Below are positions 1 to 5,264 of a DNA stretch of 64,000 bases, piece by piece (position 1 is the stretch's first letter; each line of letters starts with the position of its first letter). The position numbers and the translations under genes are program-made. Source of the DNA: Elusimicrobiota bacterium. Its GTDB lineage: Bacteria > Elusimicrobiota > Elusimicrobia > UBA1565 > UBA9628. The stretch is taken from contig PLZD01000068.1 in NCBI GenBank assembly GCA_003151975.1, forward strand, positions 1 through 64,000, given 5' to 3'. The notes beneath the pieces are model-generated. The model made no database searches. It was not told where the DNA came from and saw only the letters and a list, made by a program, of their open reading frames with translations.

Positions 1-500
1 CGCCGCCCGCGCCGGCTCCGGTGCCCACGCCACCCGCGCCGGCTCCGCCTCCGCCCGCAGCGCCTCCGCCGGCTCCCGCTGCGGCCGTCGTTGCCGCGGG
101 CGCCGAAGACGTTCCCGATAAGACGCCCAAGGAGCAGATCCGCCGCGTCGCCTTCGTGTTCACGGCCGAGCACAAAGAGAAGAAGGACGCGCTGGCCAAA
201 TTCATGTCCTCATCGGCGCAAACGATCTCCAAGAAGCCGCTCTACTTGCGCCGCGTGCTCCATGAGGAAGTCGAACCCAGCGCGGACGGCAAGGGAATAC
301 TCTCGCGCGTCGAGGAGGTCAAGGCCGTCGCGGTGCTCGGCATTCTCGAGGGCCTGCCCGAGTCGAAGGTGCGCGAGCTCACCGAGGTGTTCTCGGGCGC
401 GGGTATTCTGTTCCGCGTCGTGGCTCCGGAGGAGATTCAGAAGCGCTCGATGGCGGTCGACCTCATCGTCGACATGATGCTGTTGAGCTCGGAGAGCTGA
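1..500 (+). CDS. Pro/Ala-rich protein of unknown function (5' end outside window)
   Basis: The reading frame is open from the window edge, so the true start lies upstream; a GTG at 21 is in a Pro/Ala-rich stretch and is probably internal. What is visible is a Pro/Ala linker of about 35 residues followed by a compact alpha/beta domain of about 110 residues (begins near KTPKEQIRRVAFVFTAEHKE, ends LIVDMMLLSSES) that I do not recognise. Its stop overlaps the ATG of the next gene (TGATG at 498-502), so the two are probably translationally coupled. The same style of Pro/Ala linker occurs in that next gene, which suggests a shared complex or shared ancestry. Function unknown. Confidence 0.7.
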   Translation, partial: PPAPAPVPTPPAPAPPPPAAPPPAPAAAVVAAGAEDVPDKTPKEQIRRVAFVFTAEHKEKKDALAKFMSSSAQTISKKPLYLRRVLHEEVEPSADGKGILSRVEEVKAVAVLGILEGLPESKVRELTEVFSGAGILFRVVAPEEIQKRSMAVDLIVDMMLLSSES

Positions 501-2791
501 TGGAGAAGTGGGCCATCCGTCCCGATCCGAGCCCGTTCGATCCCCGCCGGCATGTGCTGCTGGTCAAGGGTACCATGAAGGACATCAGCGCGATCCTCCT
601 TAAATTCGGAGCCCAATGCGGGCGTCCCTCTCCGGTGAATTCTCCCGAAGGGTTCAACTACAGCCTCATCCTGCACGCGATCACCCAGGTCGGCATCGAG
701 CGCCTGAGCGGGGCGCTCAATGTGATGAGCGGCGTCGCGCTGCCCTCGGCGACGTCCACCGCCGGGACCGCGGCAGCCCTCGGGGCCGCTTTCGGCGCGC
801 CGCCGGCGTTCGAACCGCCGTCGATCCAGCCGCCCTCTTTGGGCGAGCCGCCGGCGGTCTTGCCTCCGTCGTTTGAGCCGCCGTCGTTGGGCGAGCCTCC
901 CGTGGTTTTGCCGCCGTCGTTTGAGCCGCCGTCGATCCAGCCGCCCTCTTTGGGCGAGCCTCCCGTGGTTTTGCCGCCGTCGTTTGAGCCGCCTTCGATC
1001 CAGCCGCCGTCGTTGGGCGAGCCTCCCGTGGTTTTGCCGCCGTCGTTTGAACCGCCGTCGATCCAGCCGCCGTCGCTGGGCGAGCCGCCGATGATCCTGA
1101 CGCCCTCGTTGAGCGAGCCGCCGTCGATCCTGCCGCCGGGGCTTGAGCCGCCGCCCGGGCTGACGCCGCCGTCGTTCGAGCCCGCGCTCGGCGCCGCTGA
1201 TGGCGTGGCGCCCTCGAAATCGTTCGAGCCCATGGCGACGATGAAGCTTCCGACTCCGCCGGAGCCGCAGGCGGCCCCGCCCGCGTTTCTCGCGGAACCG
1301 GCCGCGGGCCTCGGCGCTCCCGAGATGGACAAGAGCGCGTTGCCTTCCGATCCTTCTCAGCTCAAGACGCCGACGCCGCCCCCGACGCCGGCTCCCGCGC
1401 CGGAGCTCGTCTCGTTGGCGCCGGCGGCGCCCGGGCCGGAGCTCAGCCTCGCGTCTCCAGCGGCCGCCCCCGCAGGGGGCGAGCCCGCGCCCGCGGCCGG
1501 GCCGGAAATCAGCCTCGCGCCTCCGGCGGCCGCCCCCGGAGGGGGCGCTCCCAGCTTTACGCCGCAGCCTCTGCCGGAACGGCCGATGTGGGGTCTGCCG
1601 GTCGGCCTTAATGCCGAGTGCACTTTCGATACCTTGCTCGTCGGGCCCTACAACCGCTTCGCGCATGCCGCCGCGACCTCAGTCGTGGGCTCGCCCGGCA
1701 GCATGTACAACCCTTTGTTCTTGTACGGCGCCGGCGGCGTCGGAAAGACCCATGTGGCCTTCGCGATCGCGGCGGGCCTCGCCCAAACCTTGACCGCCGA
1801 CGGCGTGATCGTCACCTCGGGCTCGCGGCTGGCGCGCGCGGTGAGCGCGGCGGTCGCTGAGTCGCGGTTCGCCGAGCTCGAGCAATATCTCGCCCAGCGC
1901 AAGGCGCTGGTCGTCGACGATATTCATCTTCTGGCGGTCACCGAGGCCAACAAGGCGCAGCTCGCGCGCGTCTTCGATCTGTTTTTCGGGAAGGGCCTGC
2001 AGGTCGTGCTGACTTCGATCTATCCGCCGAAGGCGCTAGGCGCCCTTGAGGAAGCCCTCAAGATCTCGCTGGGCAAGGGCTGGTCGGTGGATCTCAAGGT
2101 CCCGGGACAAAACGTCCAGCTCGAGCTGCTGCAGGCTTTTTTCGACAAAGCCTCCATTCAAGCGAACAACGAGATCACCAAGTCTTTCCACGAGCGCATC
2201 CTGAGCAATTACGCGGATTGGAAGCGCTGGGCACTGCGCCTTCGGACCCTCAGCCAGCTCAAGACGACCGGCTCGGAGCCGCCCAAAGTCGAGGACATTC
2301 TGCCCATTCTGTTTGATCCCGGCGTGCCGGCCGGGTCTCCTGAGTTCCCGACGCCCGAGGAACTGCAGAGCGTCACCGGCTTCTCCTTCCCGCCGGCCGG
2401 CCCCGACGCGGTGCCCTTGGCGGTCATTCTGCCTAAAGGCCAAGAGCAGATGGGCGCCTGGGTCGCCTCGCGCTTCTTCGAGGCTGGCAAGCTGCACGCG
2501 GTACCCACGACCTTCCGGCAGGTGCTCTTGGAGACTTACGACGCCGGCCAGCCGTTCGGCGTGCCGTTCCAGATCGGCGACATGTGCGTGCGCTCGGGCG
2601 CGCGGGCGGCTCTGATCATCGGGCCGCCGGCCGACAGCGGCTTGGCGGCGCGCGTCGGCGAATTCTCGCACGCGGTGAGCCATATTCTCGATGGGCTCGA
2701 CACGGCCATGGGCTGGGTGCCCCACAACGGCACGACCTCCGCCTCGCATTTTCTGCGCGCCCATCTCGACATCATGAACCGCCCCGCATGA
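500..2791 (+). CDS. DnaA-like AAA+ ATPase with Pro-rich tandem repeats, lacking the DnaA DNA-binding domain
   Basis: 763 residues. Residues 1-90 form an unrecognised folded domain. Residues 104-225 are Pro-rich 21-residue tandem repeats (unit FEPPSIQPPSLGEPPVVLPPS), followed by a Pro/Ala linker to about 365. Residues ~372-600 are an AAA+ module that reads like DnaA domain III: a CTFDTLLVGPYNRFAHAAA entry segment, Walker A GAGGVGKT at 410-417 and Walker B ALVVDDIHLLA near 470-480. The DnaA domain IV helix-turn-helix is absent. The C-terminal ~130 residues are a different unrecognised domain. The ATG overlaps the upstream stop, and the 3' end overlaps the histidine kinase start by 4 nt (ATGA). 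Replication initiation is therefore unlikely; a signalling or scaffold ATPase acting with the neighbouring kinase is my inference. The family call (DnaA/Hda/DnaC-type) is solid, the role is not. Confidence 0.85.
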   Translation: MEKWAIRPDPSPFDPRRHVLLVKGTMKDISAILLKFGAQCGRPSPVNSPEGFNYSLILHAITQVGIERLSGALNVMSGVALPSATSTAGTAAALGAAFGAPPAFEPPSIQPPSLGEPPAVLPPSFEPPSLGEPPVVLPPSFEPPSIQPPSLGEPPVVLPPSFEPPSIQPPSLGEPPVVLPPSFEPPSIQPPSLGEPPMILTPSLSEPPSILPPGLEPPPGLTPPSFEPALGAADGVAPSKSFEPMATMKLPTPPEPQAAPPAFLAEPAAGLGAPEMDKSALPSDPSQLKTPTPPPTPAPAPELVSLAPAAPGPELSLASPAAAPAGGEPAPAAGPEISLAPPAAAPGGGAPSFTPQPLPERPMWGLPVGLNAECTFDTLLVGPYNRFAHAAATSVVGSPGSMYNPLFLYGAGGVGKTHVAFAIAAGLAQTLTADGVIVTSGSRLARAVSAAVAESRFAELEQYLAQRKALVVDDIHLLAVTEANKAQLARVFDLFFGKGLQVVLTSIYPPKALGALEEALKISLGKGWSVDLKVPGQNVQLELLQAFFDKASIQANNEITKSFHERILSNYADWKRWALRLRTLSQLKTTGSEPPKVEDILPILFDPGVPAGSPEFPTPEELQSVTGFSFPPAGPDAVPLAVILPKGQEQMGAWVASRFFEAGKLHAVPTTFRQVLLETYDAGQPFGVPFQIGDMCVRSGARAALIIGPPADSGLAARVGEFSHAVSHILDGLDTAMGWVPHNGTTSASHFLRAHLDIMNRPA
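809..1165 (+). repeat. 63-bp coding tandem repeat (Pro-rich)
   Basis: Four full 63-bp units and one shortened 48-bp unit encode FEPPSIQPPSLGEPPVVLPPS and close variants, then decay into degenerate copies up to about 1165. Neighbouring units are nearly identical at the DNA level, which points to recent expansion by slippage or recombination. The array lies in a disordered linker between two folded domains, so copy-number change would alter only the linker length. Confidence 0.9.
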
Positions 2792-4194
2792 GCGACCACG
2801 GACCCAACGCGGCATACTTTGTGCTCAGCGCGCTCGCCTGCGCGGTCGCGGCCTTCTCGGCCTATTGGTACCTGCGCTTCCGTCACGTCCTGCCGCTGGA
2901 GCGCCAGATTCGGGCCCTGCGCGACAAGGCCGAGGGCTTGCGCCGCTTCTCGATTAAAAAGTCCCGCGAGGCGAGGACTTTGCACGACGTCGCCGCGACG
3001 GTCACTCATGATTCGCAGACCCAATCGGCCTTGGGCGCGGTGGTCTCGATCATCGCGAAGTACCTCGAGGCCGACACCGTGGCCTTCCTGCTCGCCGATG
3101 AGGCTCAAGAAGAGCTCGTGGTCCAGCCCGGCGCTTACGGGCTCGAGAGCGAAGAGCTTCTCTACCGCATCCCCTTGACCGAGGAGGGCTCCTCGTCAGT
3201 GAGGGTCTTCAAGAACGGCGAGGCCTTCCTGACCTCCGACGCGCAGAACGATCCCGGCACCTTGGCGCGCTACGCCAAGCTCTGGCGGATCCATTCGCTG
3301 ATGACGGTGCCCATACGCGCCAAGAACCGGTCGCTTGGGGTGCTCCGAGTCGGCTCTTTTAAACGGGATTTTTTTAAGAAGGAGCACTTGGAACTGCTCT
3401 CCGTCATCGCGGGAGAGGCCGGAATCATCGTCGAAGCGGCGATTTTGAACAAGAAATTGGCCCAGTCAGTGGAACAATTAGGGGCCCTCAATCGTATGAA
3501 AGATGACTTCGTTTCGATGGTCAGCCATGAGTTCAAGACGCCGCTGACCACGATGATGGGGTTCATCACCGTGATGCTCGACGGTGAAACGGGAGAGATG
3601 ACGGAACAGCAGAGGAAATTTTTGAACGTGACCCATAACGCGGCCAAGCGGTTGGAGTACCTCGTCACCGAGCTTTTGGACTTGTCCAAGCTCGAGGGGG
3701 GAGCGCAGATGGAAATGCGCCCCCTGAACCTCGGCGTCATGCTGCGCGACGCCGCCGACAGCCACCGCTCCCACGCCGAGGTCACCGGCAAGAAGCTCTC
3801 CGTGGAGGTCCCCGAGTCCGTGCCTTGGGCCCTGGGCGACGAGCGCTGGCTGACCTTGGTGCTCGACAACCTGATCTCCAACGCGGTCAAGTTCACCAAG
3901 CCCGAAGGCGAGGTCAGGGCCTCCATCGCGGATCTAGTCTCCGCGATCCGGGTCTGCGTCTCCGACGACGGCGTCGGCATCCCTCCGGAAGACCACGAGC
4001 ACATTTTCCAGAAGTTCTACCGCGCGCGCAACGCGGCCGCGGCCGGCGTGTCGGGCACGGGACTGGGCCTGGCCATCGCGCGCGAGATCGTGCTCAAGCA
4101 CGGCGGAAAAATCTGGTTTGAGTCCGAGCTCAACAAGGGCACCAAGTTCTTCTTCGAGATCTCGACGGCGCGCGAGCGGGAGAAGGTCTCGTGA
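2788..4194 (+). CDS. GAF-domain sensor histidine kinase
   Basis: 468 residues from the ATG at 2788, which overlaps the upstream stop as ATGA; longer in-frame starts lie inside the previous gene and are disfavoured. Residues ~7-30 form one membrane segment with a short loop before it, followed by a coiled coil and a GAF domain at about 65-225. HisKA carries the phospho-acceptor His247 in MVSHEFKTPLTTMMGF. HATPase_c shows the N box DNLISNAVKFT, the G1 box DDGVGIP, the F box FQKFYRA and the G2 box GTGLGLA. It should autophosphorylate and pass phosphate to a response regulator, but none is encoded in this window. The signal sensed by the GAF domain cannot be read from sequence. The next gene starts inside its last codons (GTGA). 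Confidence 0.95.
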   Translation: MSDHGPNAAYFVLSALACAVAAFSAYWYLRFRHVLPLERQIRALRDKAEGLRRFSIKKSREARTLHDVAATVTHDSQTQSALGAVVSIIAKYLEADTVAFLLADEAQEELVVQPGAYGLESEELLYRIPLTEEGSSSVRVFKNGEAFLTSDAQNDPGTLARYAKLWRIHSLMTVPIRAKNRSLGVLRVGSFKRDFFKKEHLELLSVIAGEAGIIVEAAILNKKLAQSVEQLGALNRMKDDFVSMVSHEFKTPLTTMMGFITVMLDGETGEMTEQQRKFLNVTHNAAKRLEYLVTELLDLSKLEGGAQMEMRPLNLGVMLRDAADSHRSHAEVTGKKLSVEVPESVPWALGDERWLTLVLDNLISNAVKFTKPEGEVRASIADLVSAIRVCVSDDGVGIPPEDHEHIFQKFYRARNAAAAGVSGTGLGLAIAREIVLKHGGKIWFESELNKGTKFFFEISTAREREKVS

Positions 4195-5264
4195 GGGCTC
4201 CCTGGCTGCTGCCGCTGGCAGTCGCGCTCTTTTGCGGCTGCGTCGAGCGCGAGCTCAAGGACATCGTTGTCGAGACCGGCGGCGCCTCGGCCGTCGAGGC
4301 CCGGCGCGCGGCCGTTTCCGGTCTCTGCGAGCTGTTCGTCTCATCCTCGGCGCTGGCGGCCAACCGCGCGGAAATCGACGAGAAGATCATAGCGCACGCC
4401 GCGGACTTCATTGCGCGTGAAAAAATGATCCTGGTGAAGGGAAGCCCCGCCGACACGCGGCTGAGCGTCATGGTCTCGCTCGACAAGCTGGGGCGCGCGC
4501 TGGACGACTTGGGCCTCGTCAAGCCCGAAGGCGTCGCGGGGCGGCCTCAGCTGCTGGTCCGCGTGATCGAATCAGGGCCCGGTTCGGGCAATCACGCCGC
4601 TTCCGAGGCCATGCGGCGCGCGCTCGCGCAGCAAGGCTACTTCGTCGTCGATCTGAGCTCCGAGACGAAGGCGGCCGCCAACGCGAAGGCGCGCGCGCTT
4701 AAATCGGGGGCGCTGATCCAGGGAGACGTGGAGTCGCGCGCCGCTCCCGACCCGCGACTCGTCGGTTTCCAGCCCGCCGCGGCCAAGATTTCGGTGAGGA
4801 CCGTCGCAGCGCCCGGACCGGAGGCGCTCGAAGAGGTCGAAGCCGACGCCTCCTCGATCGACGCGACGCTTGCGGCCGCCGGCGCCAAGGCGATGTCGGC
4901 CGCCGGCGAGATCGCCGCGGCCAAGCTCCGGCAAGTCCTGGGCTCGCGCTACCGCGAGCGCGTCGAGATGTCGGCGCTCTTCGTCGGCCTCGGCGGTCTT
5001 GAGGCGGCCAAGAAATTGATCGCGGACCTCAGGGCCCAGCCGTTCGTCGCGGGCGCAGCGCTCGATTCCATCGTCGGCGACGACGCCCGGGCCCGCAAGG
5101 GCGACGACGTCAAGATCAGGATTTTCGTGGAAAACCCGTCGGTCGACGAGCTCGCGTCCGAGCTCATGAAGCTGCCCAAGTACGCCTTCAACATACGCGA
5201 CGTCGAAGCGGACTACCGCTACGTGGAGATGGACGCCTCGGGAGGACACTGGCATGCTCTCTAG
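4191..5264 (+). CDS. FlgT/LPP20-like exported lipoprotein
   Basis: 357 residues from a GTG that overlaps the kinase stop (GTGA). The N-terminus is a short hydrophobic signal ending ALFCGC, a degenerate lipobox, so lipid anchoring is probable but unproven. Residues ~30-110 match the pattern of FlgT/LPP20-type domains: an AxxxARRAAVxGLxELFVSSS helix, an IDEKIIAHAADFI segment, and then a strand-rich stretch. Two further alpha/beta domains follow, including LLVRVIESG and the C-terminal VKIRIFVENPSVDELASELM. No flagellar genes are seen nearby, so the role is probably in the envelope rather than in a flagellum. Its 3' end overlaps comM by 11 nt. Confidence in the family is moderate. Confidence 0.65.
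   Translation: MRAPWLLPLAVALFCGCVERELKDIVVETGGASAVEARRAAVSGLCELFVSSSALAANRAEIDEKIIAHAADFIAREKMILVKGSPADTRLSVMVSLDKLGRALDDLGLVKPEGVAGRPQLLVRVIESGPGSGNHAASEAMRRALAQQGYFVVDLSSETKAAANAKARALKSGALIQGDVESRAAPDPRLVGFQPAAAKISVRTVAAPGPEALEEVEADASSIDATLAAAGAKAMSAAGEIAAAKLRQVLGSRYRERVEMSALFVGLGGLEAAKKLIADLRAQPFVAGAALDSIVGDDARARKGDDVKIRIFVENPSVDELASELMKLPKYAFNIRDVEADYRYVEMDASGGHWHAL

Follow-up and report, generated by a model that had tools for sequence, protein, structure and literature searches.

We describe a DnaA paralogue of 763 aa that occurs across the phylum Elusimicrobiota, carries neither the DNA-binding domain nor the arginine finger of DnaA, is fused to a C-terminal domain of predicted Argonaute MID-like fold, and is encoded beside pilT and a sensor kinase. 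Reasoning from gene context, we hold with moderate confidence that it serves as an ATP-dependent adaptor in a module that regulates type IV pili, a reading that fits best because its linkage is conserved in differing surroundings and the features with which DnaA forms DNA-opening oligomers are lost (the two strongest facts at hand). DnaA-family proteins are known for the initiation of replication and its control; the conservation of the operon suggests that here a replication protein was reused in the control of surface pili, which, if true, would clearly exemplify the transfer of an initiator ATPase to the regulation of the envelope or of pili. Literature searches found nothing describing this protein or operon. 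Since Elusimicrobium has been cultured, the role of the protein is open to testing.

The window (the whole stretch of 64,000 nucleotides that was analysed) begins with a run of overlapping genes, all on the forward strand. The first, cut by the contig end at the window start, is the 3' part of the gene for a partner protein, P2 (3..500, with a Pro-rich linker and, at about 126-497, a C-terminal domain; recognised by hhalign and contig comparison). Its TGA (498-500) overlaps by 1 nt the ATG, at 500, of the gene for the DnaA-like protein (500..2791; defined from the ORF list, Pfam and an orthologue alignment), and the stop of the latter is overlapped by 4 nt by the ATG, at 2788, of a histidine kinase of 468 aa (2788..4194); hence, the overlaps with both neighbours that the first-pass annotation had reported are present. 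The kinase has an N-terminal hydrophobic segment (recognised by eye) and GAF, HisKA and HATPase domains (Pfam). It ends at position 4194, where its stop is overlapped by the start of a gene (4191..5264) that encodes a lipoprotein-like protein (signal with Cys, seen by eye) and recurs downstream in many relatives. No tRNA genes were found in the 64 kb window (1-64000).

The DnaA-type AAA+ core

Residues 370-530 matched the Bac_DnaA AAA+ core (Pfam PF00308, E 1.3e-29), and the best PDB match, over residues 370-630, was DnaA of B. subtilis (E 1.4e-25), in agreement with the earlier description of a core resembling DnaA domain III. By Pfam, the PDB match and the family alignment taken together, the AAA+ domain spans residues 365-605 (1592..2314). 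Its motifs were compared between 35 family rows and 42 rows of canonical DnaA. The N-box NR (N385-R386) and the sensor II arginine (R580) are kept in 35/35 family rows and the Walker B residues D473 and D474 in 34/35 each, while in Walker A (G410-H418, pattern GxxGxGKTH) the family keeps the Gly-Lys and the following His; judged by its sequence, the protein should bind ATP. The arginine finger, in contrast, is an arginine in 4/35 family rows versus 42/42 canonical ones (S523 in the window), and the same is true of the box VII arginine (3/35 versus 42/42; A519 in the window), these positions being the presumed counterparts, matched by motif, of E. coli Arg285 and Arg281. Also lost from the family are the SDR that follows sensor I and residues belonging to the initiator-specific region; the signature columns of domain IV are all gaps in 35/35 rows, so that the absence of the helix-turn-helix, as first noted, is confirmed. 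A domain IV hidden by divergence was considered and rejected, as an unrelated fold is predicted in its place. The genome itself encodes a separate, intact canonical DnaA that has domain IV (465 aa, stop to stop).

In E. coli, DnaA protomers join head to tail by means of ATP and the Arg285 of the neighbouring protomer, Arg281 is the box VII arginine for such oligomers, and the bound ATP is acted on by Arg334 (PMC5742627). Because the arginine finger, the box VII arginine, the initiator-specific residues and domain IV are all lost, the DnaA-like protein probably neither initiates replication nor oligomerises in the manner of DnaA, and with the finger lost it is more likely an ATP switch or a scaffold than an oligomeric motor of the canonical kind.

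Alternatively, the protein, having kept an ATP site able to accept an arginine finger and lost its own finger, could attach to a DnaA filament at its end, stop its growth and so serve as a brake on initiation under control of the kinase or the envelope. Although such a cap would suit the retention of Walker A, Walker B and sensor II in nearly all family rows, the box VII arginine and the residues of the initiator-specific region are lost as well, the conserved neighbours are pilT, the kinase and envelope lipoproteins (no replication gene being conserved in all), and 108/294 genomes of the phylum have no match to the C-domain; we regard this replication regulator as improbable. That an ordinary DnaA or Hda orthologue was misread at first is barely credible: the NCBIfam models for both match the core, yet neither reaches its equivalog cut-off (TIGR00362, DnaA, 128.2 bits versus 343.9; TIGR03420, Hda, 40.5 bits versus 194.8), domain IV is missing and a separate full DnaA is present. 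A beta-clamp binding motif was represented by a motif-like string in 1/33 orthologue rows only, within the linker, and on this ground and the 40.5 bits Hda orthology was dismissed.

Terminal domains and the partner P2

Residues 1-100 and 601-763 had no Pfam match, and neither 39 N-domain nor 40 C-domain homologues gave a consistent one. A match to DnaA domain IV or to a replication factor was sought for either terminal domain and none was found; the early impression of two unknown domains, accompanied by Pro-rich repeats, thus holds. The N-domain (residues 1-80, 500..739, from alignment and predicted structure) conserves W4, R17, L20, R42 and P43 in the orthologue alignment and was modelled as a ferredoxin-like beta-beta-alpha-beta-alpha arrangement (pLDDT 81, pTM 0.67, weaker than the C-domain model). 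Its best VIA Z was 6.1, a value that reflects the common, non-distinctive ferredoxin-like arrangement, and therefore no relative is named; an identity with DnaA domain I was likewise set aside (no Pfam match, and the best Z only 6.1). The Pro-rich linker (residues 81-364, 740..1591, from the orthologue alignment) contains a tandem repeat, found by repeat analysis of the DNA, of a 63-bp unit in 4.3 copies (862..1138) that encodes PPSFEPPSIQPPSLGEPPVVL-type units, and in the family its length varies from 10 to 347 aa (33 rows). Considering that the architecture recurs in 33 aligned orthologues and that the N-domain is detectable in 56/70 loci, it is not due to chance.

The C-domain (residues 630-763, 2387..2788, from alignment and predicted structure) is confidently predicted to have a Rossmann-like fold (beta-alpha x4) nearest to Argonaute MID domains, the AlphaFold2 model built from the window and 39 relatives reaching pLDDT 92.9 and pTM 0.87. 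Foldseek placed lumazine synthases on top (best E 1.5e-3, none below 1e-3) and gave an E of only 2e-3 for the Argonaute MID match. VIA-align, a second look at Foldseek's own match list, returned Ago/Piwi MID domains for all 50 matches listed (Z 9.9-12.3, rmsd 2.6-4.1 over 114-129 residues; top match Z 12.3, rmsd 2.6 over 119 residues), and lumazine synthase was set aside because of this. Four residues (Y680, G708, P709 and D757) are invariant in 40/40 rows and lie mostly at strand ends, where they may form a binding edge. Kinship with MID domains by sequence was rejected, since the family profile matched no Ago sequence at E up to 10 and the likeness is one of fold only; the Piwi model matches 3/294 genomes of the phylum, the source genome not being among them. 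In RsAgo the residues of the 5'-phosphate motif are Y463, K467, Q478 and K506, i.e. Tyr, Lys at Y+4, Gln and Lys (PMC4919518); a conserved Tyr with Lys at +4 was not found in the 40 C-domain rows.

A MID-like fold beside pilT could point to competence, with the complex, in the company of PilT, ComM and DprA, handling incoming single-stranded DNA at the pilus and the C-domain gripping a nucleotide or the 5' phosphate. ComM and DprA are indeed encoded downstream in many loci of the class Elusimicrobia, with PilT upstream, but loci fetched from other classes (L176-L179 and L186 among them) did not show the comM-dprA-topA flank, the family has not conserved the canonical phosphate residues of MID domains, and the resemblance to Argonaute is confined to the fold; we give this explanation a small chance.

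P2 consists of an ILSDL-type N-terminal motif, a Pro-rich linker and a C-terminal domain. When 70 C-domain rows were aligned with 50 P2 rows by hhalign, the two profiles matched nearly end to end (prob 84%, P 8e-6, score 36; an earlier comparison with fewer rows had given prob 38%, P 3e-4), whereas 40 column shuffles scored at most 18 and the reversed profile 11.6. As the real score lies so far above the shuffle maximum, the adjacent P2 and DnaA-like proteins very probably carry homologous C-terminal domains. In the source genome the 5' part of P2, which begins with the motif ILSDLDTILSD, lies at the end of another contig (C30); that end and the window start share the same repeat, with an overlap of 31 identical nt. 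The best PilT match of the genome (71% identical to the PilT encoded in the operon of a relative) stands 592 bp from the same contig end and is followed by the P2 start. The break in the assembly falls within the repeat that codes for the Pro-rich part of P2 (window 1-83; L169/L175, end of contig C30). In one relative (L037/L077, the same contig, 4610-5254), a P2-type ORF includes a stretch identical to part of the N-domain that lies downstream; it is probably a misassembly and was removed from the P2 profile, L037 being retained as a locus in the gene-order counts.

Distribution and gene order in Elusimicrobiota

All 37 related genomes (37/37) had a match when canonical DnaA was included, and by our reading of the rows the DnaA-like protein itself, whole or partial, is present in 35/37 (not in G035 and G036). 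The alignment of 33 orthologues was used to scan one genome per species (84,980 species), and the best 80 of 361 candidates were retained; among these, 40 (L056-L095) belong to the family (AAA profile in 40, C-domain in 39, N-domain in 38), and the other 40 matched in the AAA+ region only. The titles of 36 of the 40 family loci name Elusimicrobia, Elusimicrobiota or Elusimicrobiaceae, and those of 4 only 'bacterium'. Within the phylum, the C-domain profile matched 186/294 genomes, including some of other classes (E 1e-9 to 1e-15) and no genome of f15 (Endomicrobia-like by inference); in 16 loci drawn from the weak C-domain set, the AAA and C-domain lay within one protein in 16/16. Scanning genome contigs for the C-domain with the single window sequence gave no match; the alignment profile did find the family. 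No viral relatives were found. On this sequence evidence, the family is real and phylum-wide in Elusimicrobiota. Most versions from Elusimicrobiaceae (L094, L095, L146, L147, L155, L160) are about 990-1625 aa long; their low-complexity linkers are very long and their N-domain is divergent. One relative also encodes a third DnaA-type AAA+ protein (G001:C22:139853-140500; open frame of 342 aa).

Gene order was assessed in 70 loci: the window, 33 relatives, 20 loci of the families f7, f8 and f14, and 16 of 20 genomes with weak C-domain matches (G100, G255, G261 and G266 not being included). A canonical DnaA locus (L055) was dropped from the counts, and a C-domain standing alone at a contig end (L054) was counted. 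The typical operon reads pilT, P2, DnaA-like gene, histidine kinase; neither a response regulator nor a gene for a pilus structural component was noticed in it. The kinase is next downstream in 51/65 testable loci, P2 is upstream in 34/55, and PilT (identified by Pfam T2SSE) is upstream in 23/52, in several families and classes (f1, f2, f3, f6, f9, f11, f16, f21, f24, f27 and f28), with the source genome having it across the contig break. In a slot control over 1.01 Mb of loci, which left out those without paired AAA and C-domain (L054 among them), 50/50 kinase ORFs fell in the expected slot and 0 elsewhere, as did 27/28 PilT ORFs, with 1 elsewhere. Families of other classes likewise show the order pilT, DnaA-like gene, kinase (L176-L179, L186). 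The conserved pilT neighbour (on the next contig in the source genome) points to type IV pili. PilT is over the cut-off in 241/294 genomes, nearly universal outside Endomicrobia-like ones, and all genomes with the C-domain have a strong PilT match (rows compared by eye), and its being so common means that co-occurrence at genome level says little. In many f1-f3 relatives (L022-L050) a microcompartment-like cluster, named by eye (shell-type, EutN-like, RpiB-like and aldehyde dehydrogenase-like proteins), lies just upstream of pilT-P2-DnaA-like. In an f8 genome and similar loci, genes for GNA1162-like and CsgG-family lipoproteins follow the operon (L150, 12929-14597).

PilT is absent beside the gene in 11/11 testable f8, all 5 testable f7 and 9/17 testable f1 loci, and the kinase in 6/6 f7 and 5/20 testable f1 loci; in f7, which the L094 and L095 titles suggest to be Elusimicrobiaceae, the DnaA-like protein is kept with neither kinase nor P2 nor PilT in its vicinity. 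Consequently, neither PilT nor the kinase is an obligatory partner, and the ATPase is not a strict partner of the kinase. The first-pass annotation had coupled the protein to the kinase as a DnaA-type motor in a signalling complex and had suggested checking the co-occurrence of the three overlapping genes in other genomes; the linkage with the kinase is conserved (with no kinase ORF elsewhere in the control) and so is that with P2, but the former is dispensable (0/6 in f7, 15/20 in f1), neither neighbour is present in f7, and with the arginine finger gone the word 'motor' is doubtful. The f7 loci, where the gene is kept without its usual company, together with the lipoprotein-like genes directly downstream and the long low-complexity linkers, would suit a general envelope or cell-pole scaffold that is co-transcribed with pilT and the kinase incidentally and has the lipoproteins as its constant partners. 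Against this, the pilT-DnaA-like-kinase order is retained in several classes while the outer flanks differ, and we judge the scaffold unlikely.

The proposed pilus adaptor and known systems

As an adaptor of the pilus module, the DnaA-like protein would not open DNA and would instead switch conformation between its ATP and ADP states. We reason that it may pair with P2 through the homologous C-domains and that the conserved loop edge of its own C-domain probably binds a small ligand or a phosphate group. Long linkers would carry two docking ends, the N-domain in the one protein and the ILSDL helix in P2, by which the complex is attached to the PilT motor and the membrane kinase (a shared operon is no proof that the proteins physically interact). 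The sensed signal and the ATP state might then jointly set pilus retraction or assembly. More speculatively, and as a tentative possibility, the AAA+ ATPase of an initiator could have been recruited early in Elusimicrobiota to provide a pilus-signalling complex with its nucleotide switch. The paired MID-like domains of the protein and its partner would sense a phospho-ligand, such as a nucleotide or a DNA end with a 5' phosphate, and the resulting state would be passed to PilT and the membrane histidine kinase, so that the DnaA-family protein would act on surface motility or DNA uptake and not on the chromosome.

Among known systems, the protein shares with DnaA the AAA+ lineage, with N-box NR, Walker A GxxGxGKTH, Walker B DD and the sensor II Arg, and differs from it in having no domain IV helix-turn-helix, arginine finger or box VII Arg, and in its other N-terminal domain, its added MID-like C-domain and its operon. 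Like Hda, it is a DnaA-like AAA+ paralogue without domain IV that exists alongside DnaA; unlike Hda, which retains the arginine finger, it has lost that residue, lacks the clamp-binding motif, is much longer and bears two extra domains. With Argonaute it shares the predicted fold of the MID domain (by the model, at Z 12.3 and rmsd 2.6 over 119 residues), whereas PAZ and PIWI domains, the canonical Y-K-Q-K phosphate motif and any detectable sequence match are absent. Lastly, pilus two-component systems of the PilS-PilR type likewise have a membrane histidine kinase encoded among pil genes, but the kinase described here, beside which no response regulator was seen, adjoins a DnaA-like AAA+ protein and P2.
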